From positions 1 to 41,332 of IMG/VR virus record IMGVR_UViG_3300032085_000170: 41,332 nucleotides of DNA. One strand, 5' to 3'. Source of the DNA: a virus. Every line of letters begins with the position of its first letter. The stretch's first letter is position 1. The notes under the pieces were generated by a model. That model was not told the DNA's origin. It worked only from the letters and a program-made list of their open reading frames with translations, and did not search any database. Made by a program: the position numbers and the translations under genes. Positions 4,675 through 29,233 of the stretch are shown here, one piece after another.

Positions 4675-4975
4675 AGAATTACCCAAAGGTGTTATGAATA
4701 AATTAAAAAAATTAGGGGAACTTGATAAAAAACATGGTAAGATTTCAAGTGATGATAAAATTTTTAACGAACAACAAAATCTACGAATTTCTGCTATGAA
4801 AGAAATAGGAATAAGAACTAAAGAAGCTTTAGATAAATTTTTAGGCACAAATAAAAACCTTAATCCTAAAGTTAAATCTGCTCTACGTTTACTTTTTCCT
4901 AGTACTATTAAAAGAAAAAACAATTTTAATAAAGGTGGTCTAATAGACTACAGAAAAACTGGGATGTTTAAATGA
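4667..4975 (+). CDS. Basic hypothetical protein with C-terminal GG motif (AT-rich gene)
   Basis: The start at 4667 follows GGAG at a good distance and gives 102 residues beginning MAEELPKGVMNKLKKLGELD. It is Lys-rich and helical, and ends FNKGGLIDYRKTGMFK. That tail carries the aromatic-x-x-GG-hydrophobic motif repeated in several virion-module proteins here. The codons are visibly more AT-rich than in the flanking genes (many aaa, att, aat, tta), which hints at recent acquisition. The stop overlaps the next ATG (ATGA). Function unknown. Confidence 0.65.
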   Translation: MAEELPKGVMNKLKKLGELDKKHGKISSDDKIFNEQQNLRISAMKEIGIRTKEALDKFLGTNKNLNPKVKSALRLLFPSTIKRKNNFNKGGLIDYRKTGMFK

Positions 4976-5325
4976 TTGGTCAACTTATAGGAAGTCTAAC
5001 AGGATTAGCTACTTCTATCATAGATGGTAAGACCCAGATCAAACTTACTGAAGCTGAGATTAAGAAGAAGCAGCTTACAGGAGAGATTGACTGGGACTTG
5101 GAAGCAATGAGAGCTACCGAGAACTCATGGAAAGACGAATGGATTACTTTATTGTTTTCTATTCCCCTTATCCTAGCCTTCTGTGGTGAATGGGGAAATG
5201 ATATAGTAGCCCAAGGCTTTGCCTCACTTGAAGTAATGCCTCAGTGGTATCAGATTGCTCTTGGTGGAATTGTATCAGCTAGTATTGGTATGCGTTCAGT
5301 GAGTAAGTTCTTTGGAAAAAAATAA
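4972..5325 (+). CDS. 3TM-type holin-like protein
   Basis: A 117-residue protein. An N-terminal amphipathic segment (MIGQLIGSLTGLATSIIDGK) is followed by a charged helix, then the SWKDEW sequence and a hydrophobic span ITLLFSIPLILAFCG, then WYQIALGGIVSASIGMR. The SWKDEW-span-WYQ-span order matches the 3TM-type holins found in gene transfer agents and many phages. It sits directly upstream of the M15 endopeptidase, as expected for a lysis cassette. It would form inner-membrane holes that release the endolysin. Identification is by remembered family pattern. Confidence 0.8.
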   Translation: MIGQLIGSLTGLATSIIDGKTQIKLTEAEIKKKQLTGEIDWDLEAMRATENSWKDEWITLLFSIPLILAFCGEWGNDIVAQGFASLEVMPQWYQIALGGIVSASIGMRSVSKFFGKK

Positions 5326-5452
5326 CGTAATACCTATCCCTCAACTATCTGAGTTGGATAAGCAGTTTATTGCATTAGAAAAACAACAAGAGTTAATACG
5401 AGAGCAAGCAAAGCTCATAGCGGAGAGAAGTAATGACGTTTCAACTATCTAA
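5312..5452 (+). CDS. Short coiled-coil ORF with TTG start, possible lysis accessory
   Basis: A 46-residue frame from a TTG at 5312 fills the gap between the holin and the endopeptidase and overlaps both. It reads LEKNNVIPIPQLSELDKQFI and continues as a Glu/Gln-rich heptad helix (LEKQQELIREQAKLIAERS). There is no clear ribosome site and no ATG, so expression is uncertain. It has no signal peptide or lipobox, which argues against a spanin. Its fit to the gap and its coherent coiled-coil make-up are the evidence. Confidence 0.4.
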   Translation: MEKNNVIPIPQLSELDKQFIALEKQQELIREQAKLIAERSNDVSTI

Positions 5453-5885
5453 TCGTAGTAAAGGTAGACTAGAGGGAGTAAACCCCCAGCTAGTACAAGT
5501 AGTGAATGAAGCTATTAAACGCACTAAAGTAGACTTTGGTGTTACCTGTGGTATGCGTACCGTAGAAGAACAAGAGAAGCTTGTGGCTAGTGGTGCTAGT
5601 CAGACCATGAAGAGTAAACACCTAGAGGGACGTGCAGTAGACCTAGTGGCCTACATTGGTCCTAATATTACATGGGCATTAAATAAATATGATGAGCTGG
5701 CTGATGCTATGGCTGAAGCTGCACGTAAGAAAGGTGTAGCTATTAAGTGGGGAGCTGCATGGAGTGTAGGTGACATTGCTTCTTATGAGGGTTCTATGGA
5801 AGATGCAATGAATGACTATGTAGACCTTCGTCGTTCTCAAGGTCGCAGACCGTTCATTGATGCACCACACTTTGAAATGATGTAA
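5433..5885 (+). CDS. M15-family peptidoglycan endopeptidase (endolysin)
   Basis: A 150-residue protein matching the T5-endolysin/VanY type of M15 peptidase, which cuts the L-alanyl-D-glutamate bond of peptidoglycan. Zinc ligands are visible: His63 and Asp70 in KSKHLEGRAVDL, and His146 in DAPHFEM. The GMRTVEEQ segment at residues 40-47 is also typical of the fold. There is no signal peptide, so release would need the holin encoded just upstream. The start at 5433 has GGAGAGAAGT before it. The stop overlaps the next ATG (TAATG). Length matches single-domain phage endolysins. Confidence 0.9.
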   Translation: MTFQLSNRSKGRLEGVNPQLVQVVNEAIKRTKVDFGVTCGMRTVEEQEKLVASGASQTMKSKHLEGRAVDLVAYIGPNITWALNKYDELADAMAEAARKKGVAIKWGAAWSVGDIASYEGSMEDAMNDYVDLRRSQGRRPFIDAPHFEMM

Positions 5886-6076
5886 TGTTTACCTTCGTTC
5901 TCTTAATCTATCTTGGCATAGATAGAGAGCTTATAGAATACGAGATGGTCTTTGATAACATAGAACATTGCAACTACTACGCTAGAGAAGTAGTAAGACG
6001 ATACAGTACACATGGCATAGCACTAGAAGATCGTGCAATTGCCTATTGCGTTCCTAAGAAAATAAATATAAAATAG
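5885..6076 (+). CDS. Membrane-anchored small two-cysteine protein
   Basis: A 63-residue protein with a hydrophobic N-terminus (MFTFVLLIYLG) that could be a signal anchor. A soluble part follows with Cys29 and Cys55 (FDNIEHC, AYCVPK). The start overlaps the endolysin stop. The soluble part aligns with the protein at 40424-40648: F-x3-E-x-C, then R-x-Y-x-T, then A-[IV]-[AS]-x-C. If exported, the two cysteines could form a disulfide. Placement after the endolysin suggests a lysis or envelope role, possibly spanin-like, but it lacks a lipobox. Family not recognised. Confidence 0.6.
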   Translation: MFTFVLLIYLGIDRELIEYEMVFDNIEHCNYYAREVVRRYSTHGIALEDRAIAYCVPKKINIK

Positions 6077-6130
6077 TGGCATACCCACAATGAGCCAACA
6101 AAGTGGTAATACCACGAAAGGATATTAATC

Positions 6131-6760
6131 ATGGCAACAACTACACTCACACAAGGTATTGAAGAATACGAATCAACTATTACATTTGGTGATGGCATTG
6201 ACATTACTGGTACTGCAACTGTATCAGGCGATGTATCTGCTAACTCTGCACTTAACACAATCGGCTGTAAGAAGTTTCAAGTCTTTGCTGGTTCTTTAGC
6301 TGCTACTAACGGTGGCACTACTACATACGCTGACAATGACAACATGGTTGAGCTTGGTGCATTAGATGTAACTATTGCAGACTCAGCAATGGGTATTGTA
6401 ACTGCAAGTAAAATCTTTATTGATAAAGTAAAGGTACTTGTTACTACTGCTTCTGGTGGCACACACGTAGGTAATCTACAACTTAGTGCTACTGCAGGTA
6501 CAGCTACTAACGCCGCACTTACTTCTGGTACAGAGATTGTTGGTGCTGGTGTTGCATCTTTTAACCCTCGTATCTCTGCTACTGATGCAGTTACTGAAGT
6601 TGATATTAACTTTAACTCAGCAGCAGTTCACGTGTTTGAACCCAACATTGCTGTAGCAAGTACACTGATTAATTTGTACGCTTGTACTACAACTACTATT
6701 AACTCCGACAGCTTCCAAGCAGGACGTTTTACTGTTATGGTTGAATACACAGTATTCTAA
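6131..6760 (+). CDS. Putative virion structural protein
   Basis: A 209-residue Ala/Thr/Gly-rich beta protein starting MATTTLTQGIEEYESTITFG. AAAGGATA lies before the ATG. Composition and length resemble phage capsid decoration or fibre-like proteins, and the style is close to the head protein at 19886-20422 (MATxTx start, many TTT and AADxxx stretches). No transmembrane segment or enzyme motif. It pairs with the next gene 12 bases downstream. The call as structural is from composition and position, not a recognised domain. Confidence 0.55.
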   Translation: MATTTLTQGIEEYESTITFGDGIDITGTATVSGDVSANSALNTIGCKKFQVFAGSLAATNGGTTTYADNDNMVELGALDVTIADSAMGIVTASKIFIDKVKVLVTTASGGTHVGNLQLSATAGTATNAALTSGTEIVGAGVASFNPRISATDAVTEVDINFNSAAVHVFEPNIAVASTLINLYACTTTTINSDSFQAGRFTVMVEYTVF

Positions 6761-9722: not shown

Positions 9723-10140
9723 TAAAACTTGGAAGCTCCCTGAGCCAGAGCTAGTGGATGGTGAGTATGAATGGTTGTCTGTCGTTAGAGTAGGCAGAGT
9801 TGTACCATTTGGCTATAGACAAGACCCTGAAGATGATGATATACTGCTACCAATCCCAGTAGAGCTAGAAGCTTTAGAAGAAGCTAAGAAGTATCTAAAG
9901 CAATACAGCTACAGAGATGTAGCTAATTGGTTGAGTGAGAAGTCAGGTAGATACATCTCTCACGTAGGTCTAATGAAGAGAGTTAAACTTGAACGAAAAC
10001 GTAAAGCAGAAGCTTCAACGCAACGCTATTACGCTGAACGCTACAAAGAAGCGGCGGCAAAAGCGGAAACCCTCGAAAGAAATCGTATCGGAGCCAGAGC
10101 TTCAACAAGTTCCAGCGAGAGTGAAGCCAGAGCCGATTGA
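9712..10140 (+). CDS. HTH-like protein overlapping terminase large subunit
   Basis: A 142-residue protein starting MKVNKTWKLPEPELVDGEYE. Residues about 65-92 (QYSYRDVANWLSEKSGRYIS then HVGLMKRVKLERKR) read like a helix-turn-helix. They are followed by an Ala/Glu/Lys-rich coiled-coil tail. Such proteins precede terL in many marine podoviruses and may help genome recognition. The last 152 bases overlap the annotated start of terL in the +1 frame. The overlap raises the possibility of a frameshifted fusion or of a later true start for terL. Confidence 0.65.
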   Translation: MKVNKTWKLPEPELVDGEYEWLSVVRVGRVVPFGYRQDPEDDDILLPIPVELEALEEAKKYLKQYSYRDVANWLSEKSGRYISHVGLMKRVKLERKRKAEASTQRYYAERYKEAAAKAETLERNRIGARASTSSSESEARAD

Positions 10141-11545
10141 TGTAGAAAAAGCTCAAGACGTTATCTTTGAGCCTAATCCCGGCCCTCAGACAGATTTTCT
10201 TTCAGCAGCAGAACAAGAGGTACTATATGGTGGGGCGGCTGGTGGTGGTAAGTCTTTTGCTATGCTGGCCGATCCTGTTAGGTATTTTAATAATCCACTA
10301 TCTTCTATGCTGTTGGTACGGAGAAGCACAGAAGAACTCAGAGAACTTATCTCAGTCTCCAAACAGCTCTACCCAAGAGCAATCCCCGGGATTAAGTTTA
10401 TGGAACGTGATAAGACGTGGGTAGCTCCAAGCGGTGCTACTCTTTGGCTTTCATATCTAGATAGGGATGATGATGTACAAAGATACCAAGGACAAGCTTT
10501 TAACTGGATTGGTTTTGATGAACTTACACAATGGCCTAGCCCTTATCCTTGGAACTATATGAGGTCACGCCTACGTACTACTAAGAATAGTGGTCTAGGT
10601 TTATATCAAAGGGGAACTACTAACCCCGGCGGAAGTGGGCATCAATGGGTTAAGAAAACTTTTGTAGACCCAGCTCCACATAATACTAGCTTTGATGCTA
10701 CTGATATGGAAACAGGAGAGGTTATTGCTTGGCCTAAAGGTCACTCAAAAGAGGGTCAACCACTGTTTAAACGCAGGTTTATTCCTGCTACTTTATTTGA
10801 TAACCCGTACTTAGCTGATGATGGTCTGTATGAAGCTAACTTATTATCACTACCAGAGCATCAACGTAAGCAACTACTTGAAGGTAACTGGGATGTAAAT
10901 GAAGGTGCTGCTTTTCCTGAGTGGAATAGACAGATACACGTAATAGAACCTTTTGAAATACCCAGTGGCTGGGCAAGGTTTAGAGCATGTGACTACGGAT
11001 ACGGTTCTTACTCAGGGGTTGTTTGGTTTGCTGTAGCTCCTGATGAACAACTGATAGTTTATCGGGAAATGTATTGCTCAAAGGTTATAGCTACTGACCT
11101 AGCTGATATGATACTAGAAGCAGAGAATGGAGAGAAGATACGCTACGGAGTACTTGACTCATCTCTCTGGCATAAACGTGGAGACACTGGCCCAAGTCTA
11201 GCTGAACAAATGATTATGAAGGGCTGTAGGTGGAGACCTGCTGACAGGTCCAGAGGTTCAAGGGTAGCAGGTAAAAACGAAATACATAGACGGTTACAAG
11301 TAGACGAGTTTACTGAAGAACCACGGCTAGTATTCTTTAATACTTGTACTAATACTATATCACAAATACCAGCACTACCTCTGGATAAGAATAACCCTGA
11401 AGACGTAGACACACACTCAGAAGACCACCTGTATGATGCAATTAGGTATGGGGTTATGACAAGACCACGAAGCAGTTTGTTTGATTTTGACCCTGCAACA
11501 CAACGATCAGGTTTTCAAGCAAGCGACCCAACGTTTGGTTATTAA
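9989..11545 (+). CDS. terL: Terminase large subunit
   Basis: The DNA-packaging motor. The ATPase domain has a Walker A (GGAAGGGKS, residues 81-89) and Walker B (WIGFDE, 173-178), with a TTNPGG coupling motif at 210-215. The C-terminal RNase H-like nuclease has acidic residues at Asp335 (ACDYG), Asp390 (GVLDSS) and Asp483 (YDAIRYG). The full length of 518 residues is normal. The only start giving this length is a TTG at 9989 without a clear ribosome site; the next candidate is a GTG at 10121. The first 50 residues are basic and may not all be translated. Numbering is from the TTG. Confidence 0.93.
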   Translation: MNENVKQKLQRNAITLNATKKRRQKRKPSKEIVSEPELQQVPARVKPEPIDVEKAQDVIFEPNPGPQTDFLSAAEQEVLYGGAAGGGKSFAMLADPVRYFNNPLSSMLLVRRSTEELRELISVSKQLYPRAIPGIKFMERDKTWVAPSGATLWLSYLDRDDDVQRYQGQAFNWIGFDELTQWPSPYPWNYMRSRLRTTKNSGLGLYQRGTTNPGGSGHQWVKKTFVDPAPHNTSFDATDMETGEVIAWPKGHSKEGQPLFKRRFIPATLFDNPYLADDGLYEANLLSLPEHQRKQLLEGNWDVNEGAAFPEWNRQIHVIEPFEIPSGWARFRACDYGYGSYSGVVWFAVAPDEQLIVYREMYCSKVIATDLADMILEAENGEKIRYGVLDSSLWHKRGDTGPSLAEQMIMKGCRWRPADRSRGSRVAGKNEIHRRLQVDEFTEEPRLVFFNTCTNTISQIPALPLDKNNPEDVDTHSEDHLYDAIRYGVMTRPRSSLFDFDPATQRSGFQASDPTFGY

Positions 11546-11554
11546 GGAAATACT

Positions 11555-13663
11555 ATGGACGAATTTGAAGAAAGCATGGGAATGGATACTGAAGAGGCAA
11601 GCTCTTTAGAGGACATGAAAGAAGATACATACAGTGATCCTCTTGCAGGTACTATTGTAGGTCTTGTACAAAAACAATACAAGAAAGCTTCTGATGCAAG
11701 AGAGACAGAAGAAAACCGTTGGGTACAAGCATACCGTAATTATCGTGGTATCTATGGACCTGATGTACAGTTTACTTCCACAGAAAAATCTCAAGTATTT
11801 GTTAAAGTAACTAAGACTAAAGTACTTGCAGCTTATGGTCAAATCATTGAAGTACTTTTTGGCAACAACAGATTCCCAGTTACTGTAGACCCCACTACCT
11901 TACCTGAAGGAGTGGCTGAGTCTGTACACTTTGAATCTAATGATGAGATAAAGAAAGCACAGGGTCCAAGCCTAGAGGATACTAAGCTACTTCCCGGCGA
12001 GACTATGACTGATCTTAAAGAACGGTTAGCTGGTTTAAAAAATAGCCTAGCTCCTGTAGAAGATCAACTTAAAGAAGGTGTAGGTAGTACACCTACACAG
12101 ATTACATTTCATCCTGCTATGGTAGCAGCTAAAAAGATGGAAAAGAAAATTCATGATCAACTTGATGAGTCTAATGCAAACAAACAGTTACGTGTAGCTG
12201 CCTTTGAATGCGCCCTGTTTGGTACAGGCGTAATGAAAGGTCCGTTTGCTATAGACAAAGAGTATGCTAATTGGAATGATGAGGGAGAGTATACCCCTAC
12301 TATTAAAACTATCCCTCAAACCTCTAGTGTATCTCTTTGGAACTTCTATCCTGATCCTGATGCAGCCAACATGGATGAGGCTGAGTATGTAGTAGAACGT
12401 CATAAAATGTCACGTACTCAACTGCGTAATCTTAAAAAACGTCCTTTCTTTAGAAGTAATGCTATTGATCTTGCTGTATCTGATGGTGAGTCCTACACTA
12501 AAGAATGGTGGGAACAAGCTATGGAAGATGATGCTCAGGAATCCAAAGCTGAACGTTTTGAAGTTCTTGAGTTCTGGGGCAGTGTAGACACAGAAGTTCT
12601 TGAAGGACATGACATAGATATCCCTGCAGAATTAGCAGATATGGATCAAGTTAATGTAAACATCTGGGTATGTAATGGTAAGGTATTGCGTTTGGTTATG
12701 AATCCATTCACTCCTTCTATGATTCCTTACTATGCAGTACCATATGAAGTAAGCCCATACAGTTTGTTTGGTGTAGGTATTGCTGAGAATATGGATGATA
12801 CACAAACACTTATGAATGGCTTTATGCGTATGGCTGTTGATAATGCTGCACTATCTGGTAATATGTTGATTGAGGTGGACGAGACTAACCTAGTTCCCGG
12901 CCAAGACCTTTCAGTATATCCCGGTAAAGTCTTTCGTCGCCAAGGCGGTGCGCCGGGACAAGCTATCTTTGGCACCAAGTTCCCTAATGTATCCAATGAG
13001 AACATGCAGATGTTTGATAAGGCACGTGTATTAGCAGACGAGAGTACAGGCTTTCCTAGCTTTGCTCATGGTCAGACAGGAGTTCAAGGTGTCGGACGTA
13101 CAGCTTCTGGCATTAGTATGCTCATGTCTGCTGCTAATGGTTCTATACGGAATGTAGTTAAGAATGTAGACGATTATCTACTAGCACCACTAGCTAAAGC
13201 ATTCTTCAACTTCAACATGCAGTTTGATTATGACGAAGAAATCAAAGGCGATCTTGAAGTCAAAGCTCGTGGTACTGAAAGCCTAATGGCTAATGAGGTA
13301 CGTAGTCAACGCCTGATGCAATTCCTTGGTGTAGTACAGAACCCTGTACTAGCCCCTTTTGCTAAAATGGATTACATTGTGCGTGAGATTGCTAAGTCTA
13401 TGGATCTTGACCCTGACAAATTGGTGAACTCAATGGGTGATGCTGCAGTACAAGCAGAGATACTTAAGAAGTTTCGTGAAGAGAATCCACCACCACCTCA
13501 ACCACAAGCAGGTCCACCACAAGGAGGCCCACAGAAGCCACCAGCAGGGGCACAGGTACAGGACACTCAAGGTAGCGGAGGGGGTACTATAGGTACAGGC
13601 ACAGCACCTCAGCCGGGAGAACAAGGCTTCTCAGCTAACACTGGTGGAGGACCAATGCAGTGA
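11555..13663 (+). CDS. Portal protein
   Basis: A 702-residue protein with an acidic N-terminus (MDEFEESMGMDTEEASSLED), a central helical and beta region, and a Pro/Gln/Gly-rich disordered tail. RWVQAYRNYRGIYG at about residue 56 and the later LAFxEC-type region ANKQLRVAAFECALFGTGVM are typical of podovirus portals. It follows terL by nine bases and is the size expected for a 12-subunit portal that carries DNA into the head. Its C-terminal tail (QPGEQGFSANTGGGPMQ) is low-complexity. The stop overlaps the next gene's GTG (GTGA). Confidence 0.85.
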   Translation: MDEFEESMGMDTEEASSLEDMKEDTYSDPLAGTIVGLVQKQYKKASDARETEENRWVQAYRNYRGIYGPDVQFTSTEKSQVFVKVTKTKVLAAYGQIIEVLFGNNRFPVTVDPTTLPEGVAESVHFESNDEIKKAQGPSLEDTKLLPGETMTDLKERLAGLKNSLAPVEDQLKEGVGSTPTQITFHPAMVAAKKMEKKIHDQLDESNANKQLRVAAFECALFGTGVMKGPFAIDKEYANWNDEGEYTPTIKTIPQTSSVSLWNFYPDPDAANMDEAEYVVERHKMSRTQLRNLKKRPFFRSNAIDLAVSDGESYTKEWWEQAMEDDAQESKAERFEVLEFWGSVDTEVLEGHDIDIPAELADMDQVNVNIWVCNGKVLRLVMNPFTPSMIPYYAVPYEVSPYSLFGVGIAENMDDTQTLMNGFMRMAVDNAALSGNMLIEVDETNLVPGQDLSVYPGKVFRRQGGAPGQAIFGTKFPNVSNENMQMFDKARVLADESTGFPSFAHGQTGVQGVGRTASGISMLMSAANGSIRNVVKNVDDYLLAPLAKAFFNFNMQFDYDEEIKGDLEVKARGTESLMANEVRSQRLMQFLGVVQNPVLAPFAKMDYIVREIAKSMDLDPDKLVNSMGDAAVQAEILKKFREENPPPPQPQAGPPQGGPQKPPAGAQVQDTQGSGGGTIGTGTAPQPGEQGFSANTGGGPMQ

Positions 13664-13854
13664 GCTTAAAACTACTAGTAAATAACCCAGAAGCATGGAA
13701 AGCATTTGAAGCTGAACTAGATGAACGCATTCAGGCCAGTTACAAAATGTTTTCTCAGTCGGATGAATCTCATGTAATGTACAGGTTACAGGGACAGATA
13801 CATGCACTGCAAGCTTTAAAACAGCTTAGGCTAAAGGTTAATGCTAATGGCTAA
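13660..13854 (+). CDS. Small helical hypothetical protein
   Basis: A 64-residue protein from a GTG that overlaps the portal stop. It begins MSLKLLVNNPEAWKAFEAEL and forms one or two amphipathic helices (IHALQALKQLRLKVNANG). Small helical proteins coupled to portal genes are frequent in podoviruses and may assist head or portal assembly. Nothing in the sequence proves this. It overlaps the following long gene by eight bases. Confidence 0.65.
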   Translation: MSLKLLVNNPEAWKAFEAELDERIQASYKMFSQSDESHVMYRLQGQIHALQALKQLRLKVNANG

Positions 13855-16800
13855 TCTTGAACGTGAAACAGAGGAAGCATTAGGTCTTCCCCCTAGAGCA
13901 AAAGAGACTAAACCAACAGTTCAAGAGTATATGGATGATACAGGTGCTATGGGCCTACTAACTGGCCCTATGAGTAGAGGATCAGGTCTTCTTGGAGGCG
14001 CAACTGCTGCATATCAATTTGGTAGAGACTTACTAGGTTTTAATGAACAAGCTGATGATCGTGCTTTGGCTGGACGAAAAGATGATGAAGGCATTACGCC
14101 TACTAAAAATTATATATATGACTTAGCCATAGATAAACTAGGTGCTACTCCATATCAAGCTCAGACTGTAGCTATGTTAGCAGAAGCTACTCCTATCGCA
14201 GGAGAGTATTTAGGTATTGAAGAAACAGCTAATCTTATTAAAGAGGGCAGGTACAAAGATGCTGCACTTTCAGGCGCAGGTACTGCTGCTGGTATAATTC
14301 CTTTTATAGGGGATGCAGCAAAAGCGGCTCTAAGGAGGGGTGTAGACCCTGAAGTTGTAAATCAAATTATTGCAGGTAAAGGTGCAAAAGATTTTTATGG
14401 TGATGATCTACGAAAGGCAGTAGAACTAGAAGAACGAGGTTTTAGCCCAGAAGAGATTGAAGAAATTACAGGAAGATTTACAGTAGGGTCTGCAGAAGCC
14501 GATTATTTATCAGAGCCTCTTATGGTAAGGGGTAAACCAAAGCCTTACTTTAAGTTTGAAATAGATGACTCAGATGTTTTAATTAAGTCTAATGATGGAA
14601 ACATAACCTTAAAAGAGACTTCTCCAAGCCAGCCTGTTAATGTTGGTGATATTATAGATCACCCTAAATTGTTTGCACAGTATCCAGAAGCAAAAAACGT
14701 ACAATTTTATTTTGATGCTTCTGAAGACGGTGGCGCATATTTTGATCCTAGTAAAGGACCAAGAGGTTCTATTGTAATTTCTGGAAGTAGAAAAGACACA
14801 GATGTAAGTAATATGTCTTTGAAGGATGGTCGTGACTTTAGAAAGAGTTTTTTTCATGAGTTGCAACATGCAATTCAATGGCAAGATAAAAAAATAAAAG
14901 GATTAGAACAAATAGCGGGTAGCCCTACGGGTTACATGAAAACGGTTGCTAAACCTGAAAAAGCATATAAAGGGGATTTGTACTTAAAGAAATTAGGACA
15001 AAATACAAAACTTATTAATATTAAAGACAAAATTTTAGAATTATATCAAGAAGGTAAAAAAACTAATTCGTGGGATTTTAGTTCTAAACTAAAAATTATA
15101 GATTCAGATAATAAAATGTTACCTGAACCTGTAGAAATTAAAGAATTTTACAACAACCCTGAATCAGCAAAAAAAATAGCTAAACTAATGAGAGACTTAG
15201 AGCAAGAGTCTTTTAGAACTTATATTCAAGCAGCTTCAGAAATAGAAGCTAGAGCGGTAGGTTACAGAGCCATTCCTCATCCCTATCAATCTCTTCCACC
15301 AATAGTTCCTGAAATTGATAAACAAAAAAAAATTGAAACTTCAGAAGAAGCATATGAAAATACTCCCAATAAACCAATTCAACAAGCAAAAAATAGGGCT
15401 ATATACAAGTTAAAACCCATGACTGATGAAGAAATTAGCAGATACGCCCAAGGTGCTGTAAATTTTGCTAAATATGCAGAAGGTGTAGAACCAGAATTAA
15501 AAGGGTTTAGTGATTGGGGACCAACTCAAAAAGGATTTGCCCAAGGAGGGGTAGCAATGAAAGACCAAATGGAAATGAACTTTGGGCAAGCAGAGACAGT
15601 AGACCCAGTGTCAGGTAATAATGTACCTCCCGGTTCTCTACCTGAAGAAGTACGTGATGATATACCTGCACGTCTATCTGAAGGTGAATACGTTGTACCT
15701 GCGGATGTTGTTCGTTACTACGGTGTGAAATTCTTTGAGGATTTACGTACTCAAGCAAAAATGGGCTTGCAACAGATGGATGCTGATGGTAGAATAGGCG
15801 GTGAGCCTATGGAGCCACAACAAGCAGAGCTTAGTGATGATGACTTAAATAGTATTATTGAACAAGCAATGCAACAAGAACAACCTATGATGGCTAATGA
15901 AGGTGGTGTTGTAGGTTACTATAGCGGTGGTGGTAATTTTGATTACTTAGGCGGAAGTATATTTGGACCACAAGAAAAAGCTATAGATACAACTGTAGCT
16001 AATCAATTTTATGACCCTGATGTAGGTGGTTATAAACCAACAACAGGTCCGTATGGCCCCGATCCTCAAGCAGCACCTGTAGTAGCAGCCGCTAGAGTTG
16101 CAGATCCTGTATGCCCTACAGGATTTAGATACGACAGAAACCAAGGTAGGTGTGTACCTAAGAGTGAGGGTCCAGATGTTGTAAATCAAACAGTTAATAC
16201 AGGCGGAATTAAATTTGGAAAAGACTTTGGAAAAAGTGTAGATTGGAATGATGCTACTGCAGTACAAGAGTTTGCCCTTGGTACTCCCGGAGATAGTACT
16301 AAAAGTGGATTAAACACCCCGTTTAAACCTTTTGGTTTAGATAAAAAATCTCAAAACCAATTAGCAGGTGCAGCTCTTTTAGTAGGGGGAGTAAACCCTG
16401 TTTCATTACTTGCAGGTGCTGCAACAAGAATATATCAAAATGTAGACGCAACAAAAGACTTAGCAGGTTTAAGAGCTTCTGAAATAATTGCGTATGCAAA
16501 AGGTCATAATGAAGTTGGCGGTAAAATTAATAAAGCAATAGGTCAGTATGTAGAGCAAGCTGGAAAAGGTTATTCTAATAAATCAGGGTTACTTAAAAAT
16601 ATTGTTGGTACTGGGTACAACTATGCTTCAGAAGTTTTAGGTGTTAAAAAAGAAGACCTTAAAAACTTTATGTCTATTGTTGATAATGCTAACTCAACAG
16701 AAATAGAGGTGGCCGCAGCCCAAGAAGCTTTACAGGCAAAAATGAAACAAACTAAAGAACTTGTACAGAAGTCTAGTGAAATAGAAAAAGATAGAAAACA

Positions 16801-17383
16801 AGAACAAATAACAGCAGCACAACAAGCAGTTCTTACAGCACAAAAAACTCCAATACAATCAGGCAGACTAGAAAAAATGCTAGGTGTTCCTAGCCAAGGT
16901 CGTCCAGCAAGAGATAGTGAAGGTAATGATCTTTCAGGTCTTGATCCAACAGATTTAAACTGGGAAGAAGTAAGACAGTTAAGAAGTCATGATAGTGCAG
17001 CTAATAGACAGAAGCTTGCTGAGTGGGAAGCTGCTAGTGGTAAAGAGGGTTCTTCTGGCGCACAAGCAGGATCAAAAGGATGTTTCTTAACCACTGCTAT
17101 AGTAGAGCATAGAGGTGAAGCTGATGATGGACCTACTTTAACAAAGCTGCGTAACTTCAGAGACACCTATTTAGTGAATTATCCAGAAGAAGTGAAGAAG
17201 TACTACCAAGTTGCACCTAAGATTGTTGCAGCTATACCAAAAGATAATCCTACATGGGATTGGGTAGGTAAACAAATTGACTCTGCTATTAAGCATATTG
17301 ATAATAACATGCTAGATAAAGCCCATGAAACTTATAAGAGTATGGTGCTAGAGTTAGAAACAAATTGGTTAAAGAAAGCGTAG
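13847..17383 (+). CDS. Large multidomain virion protein with zincin-like metallopeptidase and CFI-box-like C-terminus
   Basis: A 1178-residue protein. I chose the ATG at 13847 because AAAGG lies nine bases before it. In order: a Gly/Ala-rich N-terminus with a hydrophobic stretch at about 137-158 (AGTAAGIIPFIGDAAKAA); a domain with HELQH at 337-341, a zinc-protease HExxH motif, and SEIEAR near 464-469 as likely third ligand; GFAQGGVAM and a SLPEEVRDDIPARLSEGEYV domain familiar from marine phage virion proteins; GG-rich and CPTGFRYDRNQGRC segments; a coiled coil; and a C-terminal CFLTTA...LRNFRDTYL domain from 1079 that resembles CFI-box domains. It is likely packaged and ejected, with the protease acting in assembly or on the host. 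Confidence 0.75.
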   Translation: MANLERETEEALGLPPRAKETKPTVQEYMDDTGAMGLLTGPMSRGSGLLGGATAAYQFGRDLLGFNEQADDRALAGRKDDEGITPTKNYIYDLAIDKLGATPYQAQTVAMLAEATPIAGEYLGIEETANLIKEGRYKDAALSGAGTAAGIIPFIGDAAKAALRRGVDPEVVNQIIAGKGAKDFYGDDLRKAVELEERGFSPEEIEEITGRFTVGSAEADYLSEPLMVRGKPKPYFKFEIDDSDVLIKSNDGNITLKETSPSQPVNVGDIIDHPKLFAQYPEAKNVQFYFDASEDGGAYFDPSKGPRGSIVISGSRKDTDVSNMSLKDGRDFRKSFFHELQHAIQWQDKKIKGLEQIAGSPTGYMKTVAKPEKAYKGDLYLKKLGQNTKLINIKDKILELYQEGKKTNSWDFSSKLKIIDSDNKMLPEPVEIKEFYNNPESAKKIAKLMRDLEQESFRTYIQAASEIEARAVGYRAIPHPYQSLPPIVPEIDKQKKIETSEEAYENTPNKPIQQAKNRAIYKLKPMTDEEISRYAQGAVNFAKYAEGVEPELKGFSDWGPTQKGFAQGGVAMKDQMEMNFGQAETVDPVSGNNVPPGSLPEEVRDDIPARLSEGEYVVPADVVRYYGVKFFEDLRTQAKMGLQQMDADGRIGGEPMEPQQAELSDDDLNSIIEQAMQQEQPMMANEGGVVGYYSGGGNFDYLGGSIFGPQEKAIDTTVANQFYDPDVGGYKPTTGPYGPDPQAAPVVAAARVADPVCPTGFRYDRNQGRCVPKSEGPDVVNQTVNTGGIKFGKDFGKSVDWNDATAVQEFALGTPGDSTKSGLNTPFKPFGLDKKSQNQLAGAALLVGGVNPVSLLAGAATRIYQNVDATKDLAGLRASEIIAYAKGHNEVGGKINKAIGQYVEQAGKGYSNKSGLLKNIVGTGYNYASEVLGVKKEDLKNFMSIVDNANSTEIEVAAAQEALQAKMKQTKELVQKSSEIEKDRKQEQITAAQQAVLTAQKTPIQSGRLEKMLGVPSQGRPARDSEGNDLSGLDPTDLNWEEVRQLRSHDSAANRQKLAEWEAASGKEGSSGAQAGSKGCFLTTAIVEHRGEADDGPTLTKLRNFRDTYLVNYPEEVKKYYQVAPKIVAAIPKDNPTWDWVGKQIDSAIKHIDNNMLDKAHETYKSMVLELETNWLKKA

Positions 17384-17386
17384 ACT

Positions 17387-17632
17387 ATGGAAAAAGATGC
17401 TCACAGTCAATATCTTAAAGATGTAAAAAACCGTGTAATAAACCTTTCTGAAGAAGAAAAATCAATGCTTATGCAATTTAGACAAACACCGGAAGGAACT
17501 TTAGTTGCCAGAATAGTTGGTCCTGATGTTGCTGGAATAGGGGGTGTTCAAGTAGATCAATTTGCACAGGCTGATAATGTAAAAAACAAAATGCCTATGC
17601 CACAAGGCTTAGGTGCAAGACCACAACGATAA
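17387..17632 (+). CDS. Small hypothetical protein with GLGARPQ tail
   Basis: An 81-residue protein starting MEKDAHSQYLKDVKNRVINL. The N-terminal half is helical and charged (LSEEEKSMLMQFRQTPEG); the C-terminal half contains GPDVAGIGGVQVDQF. The end PMPQGLGARPQR matches the tail of the protein at 33978-34499 (PKGLMARPQGVM). This shared tail suggests a common partner or processing site in the virion. It sits between the long virion protein and the scaffold gene. Family not recognised. Confidence 0.6.
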   Translation: MEKDAHSQYLKDVKNRVINLSEEEKSMLMQFRQTPEGTLVARIVGPDVAGIGGVQVDQFAQADNVKNKMPMPQGLGARPQR

Positions 17633-17672: not shown

Positions 17673-18548
17673 ATGCCTGAACTACAAACTATGGAAACAC
17701 CAAAGACTGCAGGGTTCGTAAACCCTAACCATAATAATCGTAATCGTAAACGAATTGAAGAAGACGAGAAGGAAATCCAAGAACTTGAGGGTAAGACCCA
17801 AGAGGAAGAAGAAGTAGCAGTAGAGGCTACTGAAGAAGAACCAGAGGTTGAGGACAAGAACCTTAGTCGTGAAGAGAAGTCTTTTAAAAAACGTTACGGT
17901 GATGTACGGCGTCACATGCAACAGAAAGAAAAAGAGTGGGAAGAAAAGTTTGCTGCACTAGAAGCTCGTCTAGGTCAGGAAAACATTCGGCCTCCTAAGT
18001 CAGATGAAGACATTGAGACATGGGCTGCAGAGTACCCTGATGTAGCAAGCATTGTAGAAACCATTGCTGCTAAGAAAGCTCAAGAAATGTTTAGCAAAGC
18101 AGAAGATCGTCTGCAAAAACTAGATGCTAAAGAAGCTGAAATGTCACGATCAACTGCAGAACAAGATATACGTTCTGCTCACCCTGACTTTGATAAACTA
18201 CGTGAAGCAGATAAGTTTCATGATTGGGTTGATGATCAACCTAAGTGGGTACAAGATGCTCTCTATGAAAACTCAGACGATGCAGCTTCAGTAATTCGTG
18301 TTATTGATCTATACAAAGTAGACAATGGTATGACAAAGAGTGATTATGCAGCAAAGCGTAAGGCTGCTGCTGGTACTGTTAAGAAAGCTTCCAAAGCATC
18401 TGTTGATGCAGAGGATACATCTGGCTCATTTAAAGAGTCTGATATTGCTCGTATGTCTGCACAAGAATACGAGAAACAAGAAGAAGCAATAACTAAAGCA
18501 ATACAAACAGGTAAATTTATTTATGATTTATCTGGTAATGCACGATAA
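17673..18548 (+). CDS. Capsid scaffolding protein
   Basis: A 291-residue highly charged protein. The N-terminal half is acidic and coiled-coil rich (Glu runs near residues 30-62, then QQKEKEWEEKFAALEARLG). A helical core follows, with a Lys-rich stretch about 35-60 residues before a C-terminal helix. This is the usual make-up of phage scaffolds, and it lies immediately upstream of the coat gene, where scaffolds belong. It should direct coat assembly into procapsids and then leave. AAGGAAA precedes the start. Confidence 0.8.
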   Translation: MPELQTMETPKTAGFVNPNHNNRNRKRIEEDEKEIQELEGKTQEEEEVAVEATEEEPEVEDKNLSREEKSFKKRYGDVRRHMQQKEKEWEEKFAALEARLGQENIRPPKSDEDIETWAAEYPDVASIVETIAAKKAQEMFSKAEDRLQKLDAKEAEMSRSTAEQDIRSAHPDFDKLREADKFHDWVDDQPKWVQDALYENSDDAASVIRVIDLYKVDNGMTKSDYAAKRKAAAGTVKKASKASVDAEDTSGSFKESDIARMSAQEYEKQEEAITKAIQTGKFIYDLSGNAR

Positions 18549-18797: not shown

Positions 18798-19871
18798 ATG
18801 GCTTTTGCATCAGCATCGGGATATGGAAATCTACCAAATGGTAATTTTAGCCCCGTAATCTATTCAAAAAAAGTACAGCTTGCTTTCCGCAAGAGTACTG
18901 TTTGTGGTGATATCACAAACTCTGACTACATGGGAGAGATTGCCTCACAAGGTGATACCGTCCAAATTATTAAAGAACCAGAAATTTCTGTAAGTTCATA
19001 TTCACGTGGTACGAATGTTACCGCACAAGATTTGGACGATGAAGATTTTTCACTTACCATTGACAAAGCTAATTACTTTGCTTTCAAAATGGATGACATT
19101 GAAGAGGCTCACAGCCACGTCAATTTCATGGACCTTGCAACTAATCGTGCTGCATATCGTCTTGCTGACAACCATGACCAAGAAGTTCTTGGCTACATGG
19201 CTGGTTACGCACAGGCAAGTCAACACGCTAACGCTAATGCCCTTAATACATCTGTTAATGGTACTAAAGCTGTAACTACTGCGGGTTCTAACGAATTGCT
19301 TTCCTCTATGCAACTGCATAAAGGTGACTTTGGCAATATTACTACTTCCTCTGCTGGCACCCACTCTATCCCGCTGACAGCACGTATGCCCGGTGCAACC
19401 TCGTTGCCAACTGCTACTGCTTCCCCAGCAATGGTTATTGCTCGTATGAAGCGTTTGCTTGATCAACAACAAGTTGACTCACAAGGTCGCTGGTTGGTGG
19501 TCGATCCAGTGTTCATGGAAATTCTTGCTGATGAAGATTCACGCTTCATGAATGCAGATTTTGGTGAATCAGGTGGATTGCGTAATGGTTTGACCATTAA
19601 CAACTTCCACGGCTTCCGTGTATACTCTTCCTCTAATCTACCAGCGGTAGGTACTGGGCCGGGTACTTCGGGTACAGCTAACCAACTGACTAACTTTGGT
19701 GTTATTATGGCGGGACATGATTCTGCTGTAGCAACTGCAGAGCAAATCAATAAGACAGAATCATATCGTGATCCTGACAGCTTTGCTGACATTGTTCGTG
19801 GTATGCATCTATACGGTCGTAAGATTCTTCGTCCTGAAGCAATCGTTACTGCCCGTTATAACGCAGCATAA
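18798..19871 (+). CDS. Major capsid protein
   Basis: A 357-residue protein starting MAFASASGYGNLPNGNFSPV. The order VIYSKKVQLAFRKSTVCGDI, then GDTVQIIKEPEI, then a long helix and a C-terminal WLVVDPVFMEILADEDSRF and YGRKILRPEAIVTARYNAA fits HK97-fold coat proteins of marine podoviruses. Its place after the scaffold, the strong private promoter, the 5' hairpin and the perfect ribosome site all fit the most abundant virion protein. No N-terminal delta domain is evident, consistent with a separate scaffold gene. Confidence 0.9.
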   Translation: MAFASASGYGNLPNGNFSPVIYSKKVQLAFRKSTVCGDITNSDYMGEIASQGDTVQIIKEPEISVSSYSRGTNVTAQDLDDEDFSLTIDKANYFAFKMDDIEEAHSHVNFMDLATNRAAYRLADNHDQEVLGYMAGYAQASQHANANALNTSVNGTKAVTTAGSNELLSSMQLHKGDFGNITTSSAGTHSIPLTARMPGATSLPTATASPAMVIARMKRLLDQQQVDSQGRWLVVDPVFMEILADEDSRFMNADFGESGGLRNGLTINNFHGFRVYSSSNLPAVGTGPGTSGTANQLTNFGVIMAGHDSAVATAEQINKTESYRDPDSFADIVRGMHLYGRKILRPEAIVTARYNAA

Positions 19872-24737: not shown

Positions 24738-25094
24738 ATGGCAAATACATTCAAGACAATTACAAGGGACGTTGCACCAGCTAGTGCAGGTACTCCTGAA
24801 ACAATATACACTACTCAATCAAGTACTAGGGCTATCATCTTAGGACTTACTTTAGCTAACGTACACACCTCTCAGGTTACAGCAAGTGTAACTCTGGTTA
24901 GTACAACTACACAAACAAGTCAAACACAAAACACTACAGCACACATTATTAAAGATGCAGCTATACCAGTAGGATCATCACTGTCTGTACTAGACGGTAA
25001 GGTTGTTCTTAACGCAGGTGATATCATTAAGGTAGACTGTAGTGTGGCAGATAAAGTCTCAGTAATTATGAGCTACATGGAGATTGACAGCTAA
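24738..25094 (+). CDS. Small fibre-associated structural protein
   Basis: A 118-residue beta-sandwich-like protein starting MANTFKTITRDVAPASAGTP. Hydrophobic and Thr residues alternate (AIILGLTLANVHTSQVTASV), and it ends KVSVIMSYMEIDS. Proteins of this size and pattern accompany fibre genes in marine phages and may cap or connect fibre parts. AAGGATA lies upstream. It is coupled to the next fibre gene by a TAATG overlap. Confidence 0.6.
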   Translation: MANTFKTITRDVAPASAGTPETIYTTQSSTRAIILGLTLANVHTSQVTASVTLVSTTTQTSQTQNTTAHIIKDAAIPVGSSLSVLDGKVVLNAGDIIKVDCSVADKVSVIMSYMEIDS

Positions 25095-26125
25095 TGGCAG
25101 GTTATATTGGTAATCAAGCACAGATCAGGTCAGGGCTTAGTGCAACTATTGATGAGCTTAATATCATTGATGGTGTTACGGCTACCACTGCTGAGTTAAA
25201 CTACAATGATACAGGTGCTGCAGTAGGGACTGTTGTAGCTAGTAAGACTGTAACTGCAGATGCAAACAAAGATGTAGCTAGTCTCCGTAATGTAACAGCT
25301 ACAGGTGTTGCAACAGTTGGAAGTGTAGTAGTAGCAGATGGTGGTAACATTGGTGCTGCATCAGACACAGATAGTCTAGCTATTGCAAGTAACGGTGTAG
25401 TGACATTTAGTCAAGCTCCTGTATTTCCTGATGGTAGTTTAAACTTAGCAGACCTAGACATAGACGGTGGCACTGACATTGGTGCAGCATTAGTTGATGC
25501 AGACTTAATGATTGTAGATGACGGTGCAGGTGGCACTAATCGTAAAGCTACAATGTCTAGGCTTGCAACTTATATGGGTACTAAAATTGGTGGTGGATTA
25601 GAGTTTATTTCTTCTACTGATATCAGTGATGCAGCTACTGTATCTTTTACAGGATTTGATGCAAGTAAATATGATAATTATGTTTTTTACATTCAAAATG
25701 TTACTATAACGGGTGCTGGCGGTGTGGATTTTGGACTGAGAACTAGCAGTAATGGTGGTAGTAGTTACGATAGTGGTAGTAGTGACTATCAATGGGTATC
25801 CAAAGGTCAGAGAGCTACAAGCGACGAAGACAGTTATGATGTAGCCGACACTGACATACGACTTACATTTTCTCAAGGTGGAGATACTGGTGAAGAAGGG
25901 GGAGCTTCAGGAACTGTACAAATTTTTGGGCCACATTTAACTACTAAAACTAGAGTATCTTCTAATTTAGGTTTTTTTAATTCTGGCTCAGAGGGTCAGC
26001 CTTCTATGCAAATAGTTAATGGTGTTAGAGAATCAGAAGCTGATGTAGATGCAGTTCAGTTTTTTATGAGCAGTGGTAATATAGCATCAGGAACAATTAC
26101 TATGTATGGTATGGTTAATTCATAA
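25094..26125 (+). CDS. Tail fibre paralogue 1
   Basis: A 343-residue fibre protein. It starts MAGYIGNQAQIRSG, has one IDELNIIDGVTATTAELNYN repeat, then a stalk segment (DGGTDIGAALVDADLMIVDD and on to GGGLEFISSTDIS) shared almost unchanged with the gene at 26442. A unique region follows, then a shared C-terminus (GNIASGTITMYGMVNS). The conserved-variable-conserved layout is typical of a receptor-binding domain swapped between constant attachment and trimer-capping parts. Confidence 0.75.
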   Translation: MAGYIGNQAQIRSGLSATIDELNIIDGVTATTAELNYNDTGAAVGTVVASKTVTADANKDVASLRNVTATGVATVGSVVVADGGNIGAASDTDSLAIASNGVVTFSQAPVFPDGSLNLADLDIDGGTDIGAALVDADLMIVDDGAGGTNRKATMSRLATYMGTKIGGGLEFISSTDISDAATVSFTGFDASKYDNYVFYIQNVTITGAGGVDFGLRTSSNGGSSYDSGSSDYQWVSKGQRATSDEDSYDVADTDIRLTFSQGGDTGEEGGASGTVQIFGPHLTTKTRVSSNLGFFNSGSEGQPSMQIVNGVRESEADVDAVQFFMSSGNIASGTITMYGMVNS

Positions 26126-26441: not shown

Positions 26442-27353
26442 ATGACTAAAGCAAGAGATACAGCTAACATTGTAGGCGGTGGGTTTTCTGGCACTATTGC
26501 TGGTGCCACAATGGAACCTACGGGTGACACTGCTGCAGGAGACAATGCTGCAATAGGCTTTACTGCTGCTGAAGGTCTAATCTTAACAGGGCAAGGTAGT
26601 ACAGGTGACGTTACTATTAAAAATGATGCTGATGCATTAGTAGCTCATGTACCCACAGGTACTACAGGTATTACCTTTGCTGGAACACCAACTTTCCCAG
26701 ATGGTAGCATTGCTGTAGCTGACTTAGACATTGATGGCGGTACAGATATTGGTGCTGCTCTTGTAGATGCTGACCTTATGATTGTAGACGATGGGGCTGG
26801 TGGTACTAACCGCAAGGCTACAATGGCTAGGTTGGCTACTTATATGGGAACTAAAATTGGTGGTGGACTAGAGTTTATCTCTTCTACTGATATAAGCAAC
26901 GCAGCAACAGCTAGTTTTACTGGGTTTGATAGCAGTAAATATGACAGCTATCTTTTTACCTGCGCCAATATTGTTCCCGCAACGGATGACGCCGATTTTG
27001 CAATAAGAATGTCTATTGACAACGGTTCTAATTATTTATCTGCAAGTGATAGCTATTTTGCTGGCAGTCCGACTGATGCAGATGCAAGTTATATACCTTT
27101 AATGTATTATGGCATGGGTAATGTTTCAACAGAAGGGGCGTCATTAGATGTTAAAGTACACGGCCCTCATCTAAATACATGTACTTATGCTTTTGCAGAC
27201 GGTGTTTATTCAAAAAACAACGGTAATCTGGATAAGACCCCGCAGGGTGGTAAAACAAAAATTGCTAGAGTTGTTAATGCTGTTCAGTTTTTATTTCACA
27301 CTGGGAACATAGCAAGTGGAACAATTACTATGTACGGTAGAGTTAATTCATAA
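26442..27353 (+). CDS. Tail fibre paralogue 2
   Basis: A 303-residue fibre protein starting MTKARDTANIVGGGFSGTIA. Residues about 26-80 (TGDTAAGDNAAIGFTAAEG, LTGQGSTGDVTIKNDADA) are shared with the gene at 27363. The next stretch (DGGTDIGAALVDADLMIVDD to STDIS) is shared with the gene at 25094, followed by a unique middle. The C-terminus (VNAVQFLFHTGNIASGTITM) again matches 25094. The gene is therefore a mosaic of its two neighbours and likely carries a different binding specificity. Confidence 0.75.
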   Translation: MTKARDTANIVGGGFSGTIAGATMEPTGDTAAGDNAAIGFTAAEGLILTGQGSTGDVTIKNDADALVAHVPTGTTGITFAGTPTFPDGSIAVADLDIDGGTDIGAALVDADLMIVDDGAGGTNRKATMARLATYMGTKIGGGLEFISSTDISNAATASFTGFDSSKYDSYLFTCANIVPATDDADFAIRMSIDNGSNYLSASDSYFAGSPTDADASYIPLMYYGMGNVSTEGASLDVKVHGPHLNTCTYAFADGVYSKNNGNLDKTPQGGKTKIARVVNAVQFLFHTGNIASGTITMYGRVNS

Positions 27354-27362: not shown

Positions 27363-28448
27363 ATGGCAGGTTATATAGGTTCAGTACCCGTACCCCAAGC
27401 AACAGAAACTAGGGACGTTTACACAGCTACATCAAGTCAAACTACATTCACTACAGGGGGTTACACTCCTAACTTTGTATCCGTGTATCTTAACGGAGTA
27501 CACTTAGCTAGGGCTGACTATACTGCTACTAATGGGTCTGACGTAGTACTAGCTGTAGGGGCAGCAGCAGATGACACTGTAGAGATTGTTTCGTTTGCTA
27601 CGTTTGAAGTATCAGCACAGACATTCACAGGGGATGTTACTGCATCAGGTGGTACGTTCTTACCTACAGGTGACACAGCAGCAGGTGATGATGCAGCCGT
27701 AGGGTATGCTGCTGCTGATGGCTTGGTGCTTACTGGTCAGGGTTCTACCTCAGATGTAACCATTAAGAATGACGCAGATGCTACTGTAATGTCTATACCT
27801 ACAGGCACTACAGGTGCTACGTTTGCAGGTGACGTTATAATTCCTGACGGTGATCTAATCTTGGGTAGCACTGCTGTTACTAGCACTGCTGCTGAGTTAA
27901 ATCAATTAGATGGAGTAGTAGCAAAAACTGCAGGTAAAGAAACTATATGGGTTCCTGCCAGTGCTATGCAGCCCACTACTTCTAATGGTTGTTCTGCACT
28001 TACTACAGTAGAGACTACATCAGGTAGACCTGATATGGTTGTATTAGACTTTGATAAAGATAGTGATGAATTTGCACAGTTTAGTGTGGCATTTCCTAAA
28101 TCATGGAATGAAGGTACTGTAACCTTTCAATTCTTTTGGTCAGGCATTGCAGCCACTACAGGTGTAACATTAGGATTACAAGGTGTAGCTGTAGGAGACA
28201 ATGATACAATAGATGTAGCATATGGCACAGCAGTATTAGTAGATGATGATGCTCAAGGTGCTGTAGAAGAAATGTTAGTGTCTGCTGAGAGTGCTGCTAT
28301 TACTATTGCAGGTTCACCAGCAGTAGATCAACTTTGTTACTTTAGAATATTTAGGGATGTTTCAGCAACTAATGATGATATGGCAGGAGACTGTAGACTA
28401 CATGGCATTAAATTATTCTTTACCACTGATGCGGCGAATGATGCATAA
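27363..28448 (+). CDS. Tail fibre paralogue 3
   Basis: A 361-residue protein starting MAGYIGSVPVPQATETRDVY. The first 85 residues are a beta domain common at fibre N-termini (TFTTGGYTPNFVSVYLNGVH). The TGDTAAGDDAAVGYAAADG and GQGSTSDVTIKNDADA segment matches paralogue 2, and STAAELNQLDGV matches the repeats of the 23193 gene. The C-terminal 160 residues form a different beta-rich domain (TIWVPASAMQP, FQFFWSGIAATTGVTLGLQG, CRLHGIKLFF) that may bind a surface sugar. It is coupled to the next gene by TAATG. Confidence 0.75.
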   Translation: MAGYIGSVPVPQATETRDVYTATSSQTTFTTGGYTPNFVSVYLNGVHLARADYTATNGSDVVLAVGAAADDTVEIVSFATFEVSAQTFTGDVTASGGTFLPTGDTAAGDDAAVGYAAADGLVLTGQGSTSDVTIKNDADATVMSIPTGTTGATFAGDVIIPDGDLILGSTAVTSTAAELNQLDGVVAKTAGKETIWVPASAMQPTTSNGCSALTTVETTSGRPDMVVLDFDKDSDEFAQFSVAFPKSWNEGTVTFQFFWSGIAATTGVTLGLQGVAVGDNDTIDVAYGTAVLVDDDAQGAVEEMLVSAESAAITIAGSPAVDQLCYFRIFRDVSATNDDMAGDCRLHGIKLFFTTDAANDA

Positions 28449-29233
28449 TGAGTAGCTTTGGTTATAATATGTTAGGCTTTGGCGGTTATCCAAGTAGAGG
28501 GGGACCGCCGATTGACCTTACTTATACTCTTGTTGCTGGCGGTGGCGGTTCAGGCAGAAACCGTGGTGGTGGTGGCGGTGCTGGAGGCATGAGGACATTT
28601 TCTAACGTAGAACAAGAGAGTGGCGATTACACTATCACTATCGGCGCAGGCGGTGTGTTAGGCTCTGCCAGCCAAGCACAAACAAATGGCGGTAATACCA
28701 CAGCTTTTGGCGAGACAATGATAGGTGGGGGTCGTGGTGGTGCTAACGGTAGTTCGGGCGGCGTTACTGGCTCTGTTGGTGGTTCGGGTGGCGGTGGTGG
28801 CTCTACGAATTCTGCCGCAGGAGGAGCAGGTACGACAAATCAAGGAAATGCTGGTGGAAATGCTGGCACTAGAGAATACGGGCCGGGGGCTGGTGGCGGG
28901 GGTAAAGGGGCCGTTGGAGCAAATGCTGTTAACACTGACTTTGGGGCAGGAGGTGCAGGTGCTGCGGGAACAGATGGAGTAACATATGCTGTTGGTGGTG
29001 ATGGTGGTAATAATGCTAATGGTGCTGGTACAGGCCCAGCAGGAGGGGCTAACACAGGCAACGGTGCTGGTGGTGGGTCTGGTGATACTGACGGGACAGC
29101 AGGTGGTTCTGGTATTGTTGTTATTAAGTACCTTACATCTTCTGAGGGTTCAGCTTCAGGCGGCACTGTTACGACAAGTGGTGATTATACGTTCCACAAA
29201 TTTACTTCCTCTGGCACATTTACGATTGATTAA
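28448..29233 (+). CDS. Glycine-rich adhesin-like protein
   Basis: A 261-residue protein in which long Gly-rich runs (GGGGSGRNRGGGGGAGG, GGSGGGGGSTNSAAGGAG) separate short conserved strands (YTLVAGGGG, DYTITIGAGG, GSGIVVIKYLTS). It ends SGDYTFHKFTSSGTFTID. This matches the phage Gly-rich adhesins thought to form polyglycine-II helix bundles at fibre tips, as in T-even gp38. It would contact the host receptor. Base composition is visibly more GC-rich than its neighbours, driven by glycine codons. Confidence 0.8.
   Translation: MSSFGYNMLGFGGYPSRGGPPIDLTYTLVAGGGGSGRNRGGGGGAGGMRTFSNVEQESGDYTITIGAGGVLGSASQAQTNGGNTTAFGETMIGGGRGGANGSSGGVTGSVGGSGGGGGSTNSAAGGAGTTNQGNAGGNAGTREYGPGAGGGGKGAVGANAVNTDFGAGGAGAAGTDGVTYAVGGDGGNNANGAGTGPAGGANTGNGAGGGSGDTDGTAGGSGIVVIKYLTSSEGSASGGTVTTSGDYTFHKFTSSGTFTID

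Follow-up and report, generated by a model that had tools for sequence, protein, structure and literature searches.

The systems closest to the gene analyzed here are the large polyvalent proteins, described together with their zincins and a repeated accretion of modules by Iyer et al. (2017; PMC5512222) in a text that mentions neither tape measure nor Puniceispirillum, Roseobacter or Pelagibacter, and the polymorphic toxins (Zhang et al., 2012; PMC3482391), in which a conserved carrier bears an exchangeable effector cassette. Other parts of the protein resemble phage tape measure proteins and the CFI-box-CTERM domain. The gene lies at positions 13841 to 17383 (+ strand) of a viral DNA, IMG/VR record IMGVR_UViG_3300032085_000170, whose positions 1 to 41,332 (the whole analyzed stretch of 41,332 nucleotides) are referred to as the window. 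An earlier reading of this sequence alone (the original prediction) had seen here a virion protein joining a zincin protease, a membrane-active stretch and a CFI-box-like domain, and all of the motifs that it named (GIIPFIGDAAK, HELQH, SEIEAR and CFLTTA...LRNFRD, the last starting at C1079) are indeed present in the translation of a single open reading frame (ORF), at the residues it had assigned to them.

Comparison with related phages, which reveals an exchange system invisible from the single sequence available to that prediction, leads us to propose, with moderate confidence, that the product of the gene is a carrier loaded into virions, consisting of a tape-measure-like core with a C-terminal domain and bearing a recombining N-terminal effector cassette, here a zincin. 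The new part is an exchange with fixed boundaries on a single carrier gene, combined with a shared tag. In the open-access literature searched, no account of exchange in this carrier gene was found, and the portion of the HMO-2011 comparison paper (PMC9038755) considered here contains no discussion of the variation of the gene. The window phage itself is assigned to the HMO-2011 type (marine podoviruses) because its capsid protein is 70–79% identical to those of Roseobacter phages CRP-9, CRP-13 and CRP-1 and Puniceispirillum phage HMO-2011, and because a 54.8-kb contig carries a gene identical (100%) to the window carrier gene.

Cassette exchange at fixed boundaries

On DNA comparison, the zincin half of the gene is an exchangeable cassette, swapped between the start codon and the FAQGG hinge. 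Relatives with another cassette are 90–97% identical to the window just upstream and 76–94% identical downstream, the homology stopping after the start codon and resuming at nucleotide 15536. Aligned with one such locus (L006), the window matches at 96% to nucleotide 13852, then not at all, and then at 94% from nucleotide 15536 (the codon of F564); the same two breakpoints are found with L009 and L021, the latter additionally replacing 15917–17581, the end of the gene. With L007, the zincin-bearing stretch 13851–15808 is shared at 88%, while the upstream flank is just 74% alike. The parts of the gene, as delimited by these comparisons and by the domain analysis given below, are as follows.

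13841..17383, +: whole gene, modular cargo-carrier protein (1178 residues from the ATG at 13847; 1180 residues from the ATG at 13841)
13841..13852, +: conserved start (MLMA); blastn homology with L006, L009 and L021, which carry other cassettes, stops at 13852
13853..15535, +: exchangeable N-terminal cassette, here an LPD23-like region and a zincin
14270..14344, +: hydrophobic Gly-rich element AALSGAGTAAGIIPFIGDAAKAALRRG, approximately residues 142–166, recurrent ahead of enzyme domains
14369..14476, +: LPD23-like stretch, residues 175–210 (PF18838, E 0.0035)
14549..15271, +: zincin-like metallopeptidase domain, approximately residues 235–475, with invariant H272, Y279 and P280
14855..14869, +: HELQH, residues 337–341, putative two zinc ligands and general base
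15236..15253, +: SEIEAR, residues 464–469, with invariant E465 as candidate third zinc ligand
15536..15550, +: FAQGG hinge, residues 564–568, the 3' breakpoint of the cassette; the motif also ends separately encoded cargos
15602..15808, +: conserved core DPVSGN...VRDDIPARLSEGEYVVPADV...GRIGG, residues 586–654, tape-measure-like motif
15809..17056, +: middle region, kept in near relatives and replaced in L021
17081..17380, +: CFI-box-like C-terminal domain, residues 1079–1178, predicted five-helix bundle

The in-frame ATG at 13841 is an alternative start, and the upstream RLMLMA (start MLMA) is kept in relatives.

A broader survey of 76 loci yielded 260 pairs with similar flanks and with cargo that is unlike or absent; in 228 of them the left edge falls close to the start codon and the right edge no more than 130 nucleotides upstream of the core, and 131 pairs represent presence vs. 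absence of cargo; locus pairs are not independent, and these counts describe the pattern rather than test it. When flanks are at least 88% identical (35 pairs), the start/core edges are fitted by 30. By architecture, the 80 cargos divide into 35 groups, and 47 of the 111 homologues are without a fused N-terminal cargo. Recognizable cargo domains include LPD23, ParB-like, methyltransferase, and SprT-like and DUF6782 metallopeptidases, as well as peptidoglycan hydrolases (phrog_1259, endolysins, CHAP, Hydrolase_2), and many cargos match no known family. Such disparate domains are spread across the gene family, and some of them occur together in one protein (L007, L034).

Like polymorphic toxins, the gene combines a conserved carrier with effector cassettes that are exchanged; it differs from their arrangement of C-terminal toxin and immunity gene in that its cassette is N-terminal, in being a phage gene of the structural module and in having no immunity gene that accompanies the cassette. 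No cassette-linked gene was seen in the breakpoint comparison, the small ORF at 17387–17632 belonging to the shared downstream stretch, and a toxin-immunity reading was rejected, as no ORF travels with the cassette.

Two further observations concern the arrangement of cargo. A cargo-bearing protein of 1766 residues (L083:2203-7500) has three different HExxH sites (HEYTH, HELRH and HEVQH), showing that stacking of several metallopeptidase-like modules is possible, and in L007 a separate ORF of 670 residues (4707-6716) precedes a carrier with two fused cargos, so that one phage has cargo both in trans and in cis.

Metallopeptidase, hinge motif and conserved carrier parts

Membership of the zincin in the known metallopeptidases of polyvalent proteins, as proposed by the original prediction, is well supported by alignment and by the modelled fold. 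Across 13 cargo zincins of the HMO-2011 group, H272, Y279, P280, H337, E338, H341, Q344 and E465 are invariant. Of the two glutamates named earlier as candidates for the zinc site, it is thus E465 that holds throughout, E467 being only nearly invariant. The wider HExxH relatives have a downstream ExE[AS]R-type motif in 126 of 171 cases, and in the wider alignment (A5), which was filtered on this motif, its invariance is partly by construction. These wider zincin relatives were found in at least 182 stretches of viral sequence and 77 loci of bacteria such as Clostridia, Desulfovibrio, Akkermansia and Pseudomonas, the latter mostly encoding very long proteins, and the zincin motif also occurs in prophage-type proteins of up to about 4000 residues.

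The AlphaFold model of the domain (predicted local distance difference test, pLDDT, 78.5; predicted template modelling score, pTM, 0.70) has a helix (84–95), three strands (97–101, 108–111 and 119–123) and then C-terminal helices, of which 137–162 and 274–285 carry the HExxH and the later Glu. This order of helix, three-stranded sheet, HExxH helix and Glu helix is that given by Iyer et al., and the best viral matches of the model in BFVD are named 'large polyvalent protein' (E 1.2e-6, probability 1.00). A single-protein PDB search and a profile search gave no significant relative, with weak matches to WLM metalloprotease and IrrE (E 0.4–1.6). Similarity to the polyvalent zincin-like MPTase proteins (PMC5512222; Pfam LPD23 and DUF6782 contexts) extends from the HExxH, the downstream Glu helix and the three-strand core to the neighbouring domains (LPD23, ParB-like, lysozyme-type, methylase) and the late-gene context. 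Unlike them, the window-type zincin shares its fixed site, on a small conserved carrier, with many alternative cassettes and is exchanged as a whole at the FxxGG hinge; it also has an invariant Q344 three residues past HExxH, a position for which Iyer et al. report Asp in one clade of phages.

The motif [FY]-x-x-G-G stands shortly ahead of the core in nearly all cargo-bearing proteins. In its form [FY][AN][QEKD]GG it occurs 93 times in 100 proteins vs. 1.9 times in shuffled ones, and inner modules also end in it (L007, L009, L013, L021). Separately encoded cargos terminate in an F-N-x-G-G-L tag (LRFNKGGLVERPTK, LRLNKGGLVQRPSA and KFNLGGLVQRPNR). The strict tag is present within the last 22 residues of 41/87 core proteins and 11/15 ORFs located between portal and core vs. 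0/448 other proteins (83 portals, 69 scaffolds, 56 capsid proteins and 240 other ORFs); although these patterns were defined once the sequences had been inspected, the gene classes differ strongly. The original prediction had suggested GG motifs as cleavage sites for the zincin. The motif is real, but it marks a module hinge or a C-terminal tag in phages with and without a zincin, rather than simply the site of this enzyme. Its presence both in cis and in trans would agree with a signal for loading or docking no less well than with a site of cleavage. More tentatively, we suggest that F-(N/A)-x-G-G may be a transferable virion-loading signal, such that any enzyme ending in the tag, whether fused to the core or encoded separately ahead of it, would be packaged next to the portal and delivered to the host cell. 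As a separate observation, two window ORFs (33978-34499, ending KGLMARPQGVM, and 17387-17632, ending QGLGARPQR) resemble the basic G-L-x-x-R-P ends of some carriers and perhaps belong to the same tag family.

The core (approximately 69 residues, DPVSGN...EVRDDIPAxLSEGEYVVPADV...) is present as a single copy in 13/13 genomes and was found in at least 588 viral contig stretches. Its likeness to phage tape measure proteins (phrog_3547, E 3.5e-7; also phrog_6090, 5448 and 23013) resides in the motif VRDDIPAxLSEGEYVVPADVxxxxG; the similarity does not extend along a long tail ruler, only the core motif matching the tape-measure families, from whose members the carrier further differs as a podovirus gene adjoining the portal and without a long helical ruler. 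HMO-2011 gp49 (phage1322_49) and CRP-603 gp62, both annotated as hypothetical, have the slot and the core in common with the window gene and differ from it in having no N-terminal cargo. In these two phages the protein starts just ahead of the core, while elsewhere up to 1484 cargo residues precede it.

Within the cassette, the stretch GIIPFIGDAAK (approximately residues 148–158), which the original prediction took to be membrane-active, is a copy of a recurrent hydrophobic Gly-rich element, 'GLIPGLGDAAxxxxRRG', found in 23 of 49 cargos vs. 3.9 expected from shuffled sequences, and it may resemble the pre-toxin domains of polymorphic toxins. LPD23 (PF18838) scores 17.5 bits in the window protein, under the Pfam gathering cut-off of 27, and passes the cut-off in two relatives (L019 and L074).

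The CFI-box-like nature of the C-terminal domain was likewise upheld by a match to NCBIfam NF041770 (E 1.3e-8), albeit at 34.5 bits, under the curated cut-off of 40. The two have in common a Cys-Phe-(Ile/Leu) start after a Gly/Ser linker and an LRxFRD motif. The domain is modelled as a five-helix bundle (pLDDT 90.3), for which a Foldseek search of PDB returned no solved relative, and no CFI-box literature was found in the open-access literature searched. Unlike CFI-box-CTERM, the domain alternates in the slot with GGLMxKKKKK tails and other Cys-start domains, which suggests a similar role for these ends, perhaps docking in the particle. Related domains were also noted elsewhere. Cultured phages have a CFI-box relative (C-terminal CCFIMLEARYG after long poly-Ser/poly-Gly runs) in CRP-13 gp55 (L027:2145-5780) and CRP-345 gp62 (L035:3435-7181). 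Four proteins of 231 residues (L343:2959, L347:2965, L348:2953 and L350:2953) are matched by both the core and CFI profiles, their CFI-like domain starting with GGFIGAAAV instead of Cys, and in L343, L347 and L350 the Cys form is additionally present in another ORF.

Proposed virion loading and delivery, and alternative roles

A virion-loaded carrier with exchangeable effectors would operate through several steps. Exchange of the cassette, established by sequence comparison, would probably proceed by recombination in the conserved start and in the hinge/core DNA. The zincin would be catalytically competent, as suggested by the invariant ligands and the modelled fold, and the core, perhaps together with the FxxGG tag, would load the cargo into the procapsid beside the portal, in keeping with the gene position and with the same tag on separate cargos. 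Entry of the protein into the host could then accompany that of the DNA, perhaps aided at the membrane by the hydrophobic element, and the zincin might cleave a host target during early infection; the likeliest pressure behind the turnover of cassettes would be host defence. Loading into the head and early entry are suggested by the kinds of enzyme carried, by the location of the gene next to the portal and by the likeness of the core to tape-measure proteins; the gene position and the weak tape-measure match are also what points to the carrier being a virion protein at all. Delivery into the host is plausible, given that cargos of the peptidoglycan hydrolase, ParB-like and methyltransferase kinds are also found in the slot and that the core resembles a tape-measure motif. 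Several points weigh against this interpretation: the tape-measure match is a short motif of approximately 50 residues; the Gly-rich element has a hydropathy of approximately 1.2 over 19 residues, under the usual transmembrane threshold; a Foldseek search of PDB with the zincin gave no match below 0.001 (several low-rank matches being HExxH metalloenzymes); a host target of the zincin is purely conjectural; and no virion proteomics for the HMO-2011 group was found in the open-access literature searched.

Among the alternatives, action of the zincin in cis, cutting the carrier at the FAQGG hinge (and at other GG motifs) and thereby detaching from the core, either within the head or following entry, appears unlikely, although it would agree well with the location of the hinge. 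Cleavage there would regenerate the N-terminus of a core-only protein, the hinge being exactly where the cargo joins the ancestral N-terminus of core-only homologues, and cis cleavage was proposed for many polyvalent zincins by Iyer et al., citing the processing of P1 DdrB before packaging (PMC5512222). However, the hinge is equally conserved in cargos without HExxH (L005, L014, L016, L021 and CRP-207), and in L019/L020 the zincin needs no release because it is encoded apart from the core, making release in cis possible but not required. The role of a virion maturation protease, which would process capsid, scaffold or internal proteins at GG motifs, was one of the possibilities offered by the original prediction, and we regard it as very improbable and, taken as a general role, largely refuted. 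While a gene between portal and scaffold/major capsid protein occupies the usual place of head maturation genes, the core is found in all 13 genomes and the zincin in none of the 12 complete relatives (the same search recovered it in the 54.8-kb genome). Moreover, phages nearly identical to the window on the portal side (L006 and L021, contigs that are fragments, 96–97% DNA identity) have swapped in cargos without HExxH in the slot gene, and [FY]x-x-GG is absent from the window portal, scaffold-like protein and major capsid protein. Given that general maturation is not the function of the zincin and that release in cis is not required, we tentatively favour cleavage of a host protein early in infection.

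We consider it quite improbable that the cassettes are neutral or structural fillers, i.e., debris of a recombination hot spot with decayed enzymatic domains. The homologues without fused cargo do indicate that cargo is dispensable, and the many cargos without a match to known families would agree with such a view; nevertheless, long ORFs are maintained, catalytic residues are invariant across diverged cargos, and the recurring classes of enzyme match what would be expected of proteins that act in entry.

HMO-2011-type phages are a dominant group of marine viruses with cultured members, and, to our knowledge, injected phage enzymes are mostly known singly. The easily recognized slot (portal, carrier, scaffold, capsid) would offer an extensive natural collection of precisely delimited, probable effectors of early infection, and two questions become approachable, namely how phages select proteins for loading and ejection and what polyvalent zincins cut. 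Cassette swapping reads as if these phages keep changing the tool that they carry into the host. If the tag is a loading signal, it would provide a handle for finding injected proteins by sequence, and HMO-2011-type phages would run a plug-in delivery system with a repertoire of cassettes, a phage counterpart of polymorphic toxins.

Gene neighbourhood

The window has the constant slot of the HMO-2011 group, with portal, carrier gene, scaffold-like protein and P22-like capsid protein in this order, in the following context.

9989..11545, +: terminase large subunit (phrog_979, E 2e-55)
11555..13663, +: portal protein of the SU10_portal/phrog_332 type
17387..17632, +: small ORF ending GLGARPQR, which stays behind when the cassette moves
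17673..18548, +: scaffold-like protein (phrog_13678), a role suggested by its position
18798..19871, +: major capsid protein, P22-like (phrog_267)

All 12 annotated relatives examined have a matching gene in the same slot (portal, at times a tiny ORF, the gene, scaffold, capsid), annotated as hypothetical in each of them, and its product ranges from 377 to 1395 residues in these relatives and up to 2060 residues in viral contigs. Farther downstream, two window ORFs (25094-26125 and 26442-27353) both match phrog_14820 and have a tail-fibre-assembly-like gene between them, possibly representing duplicated fibre tips, and a Gly-rich protein with 34 GG pairs (28448-29233, phrog_2295 match) is probably a tail or fibre component.

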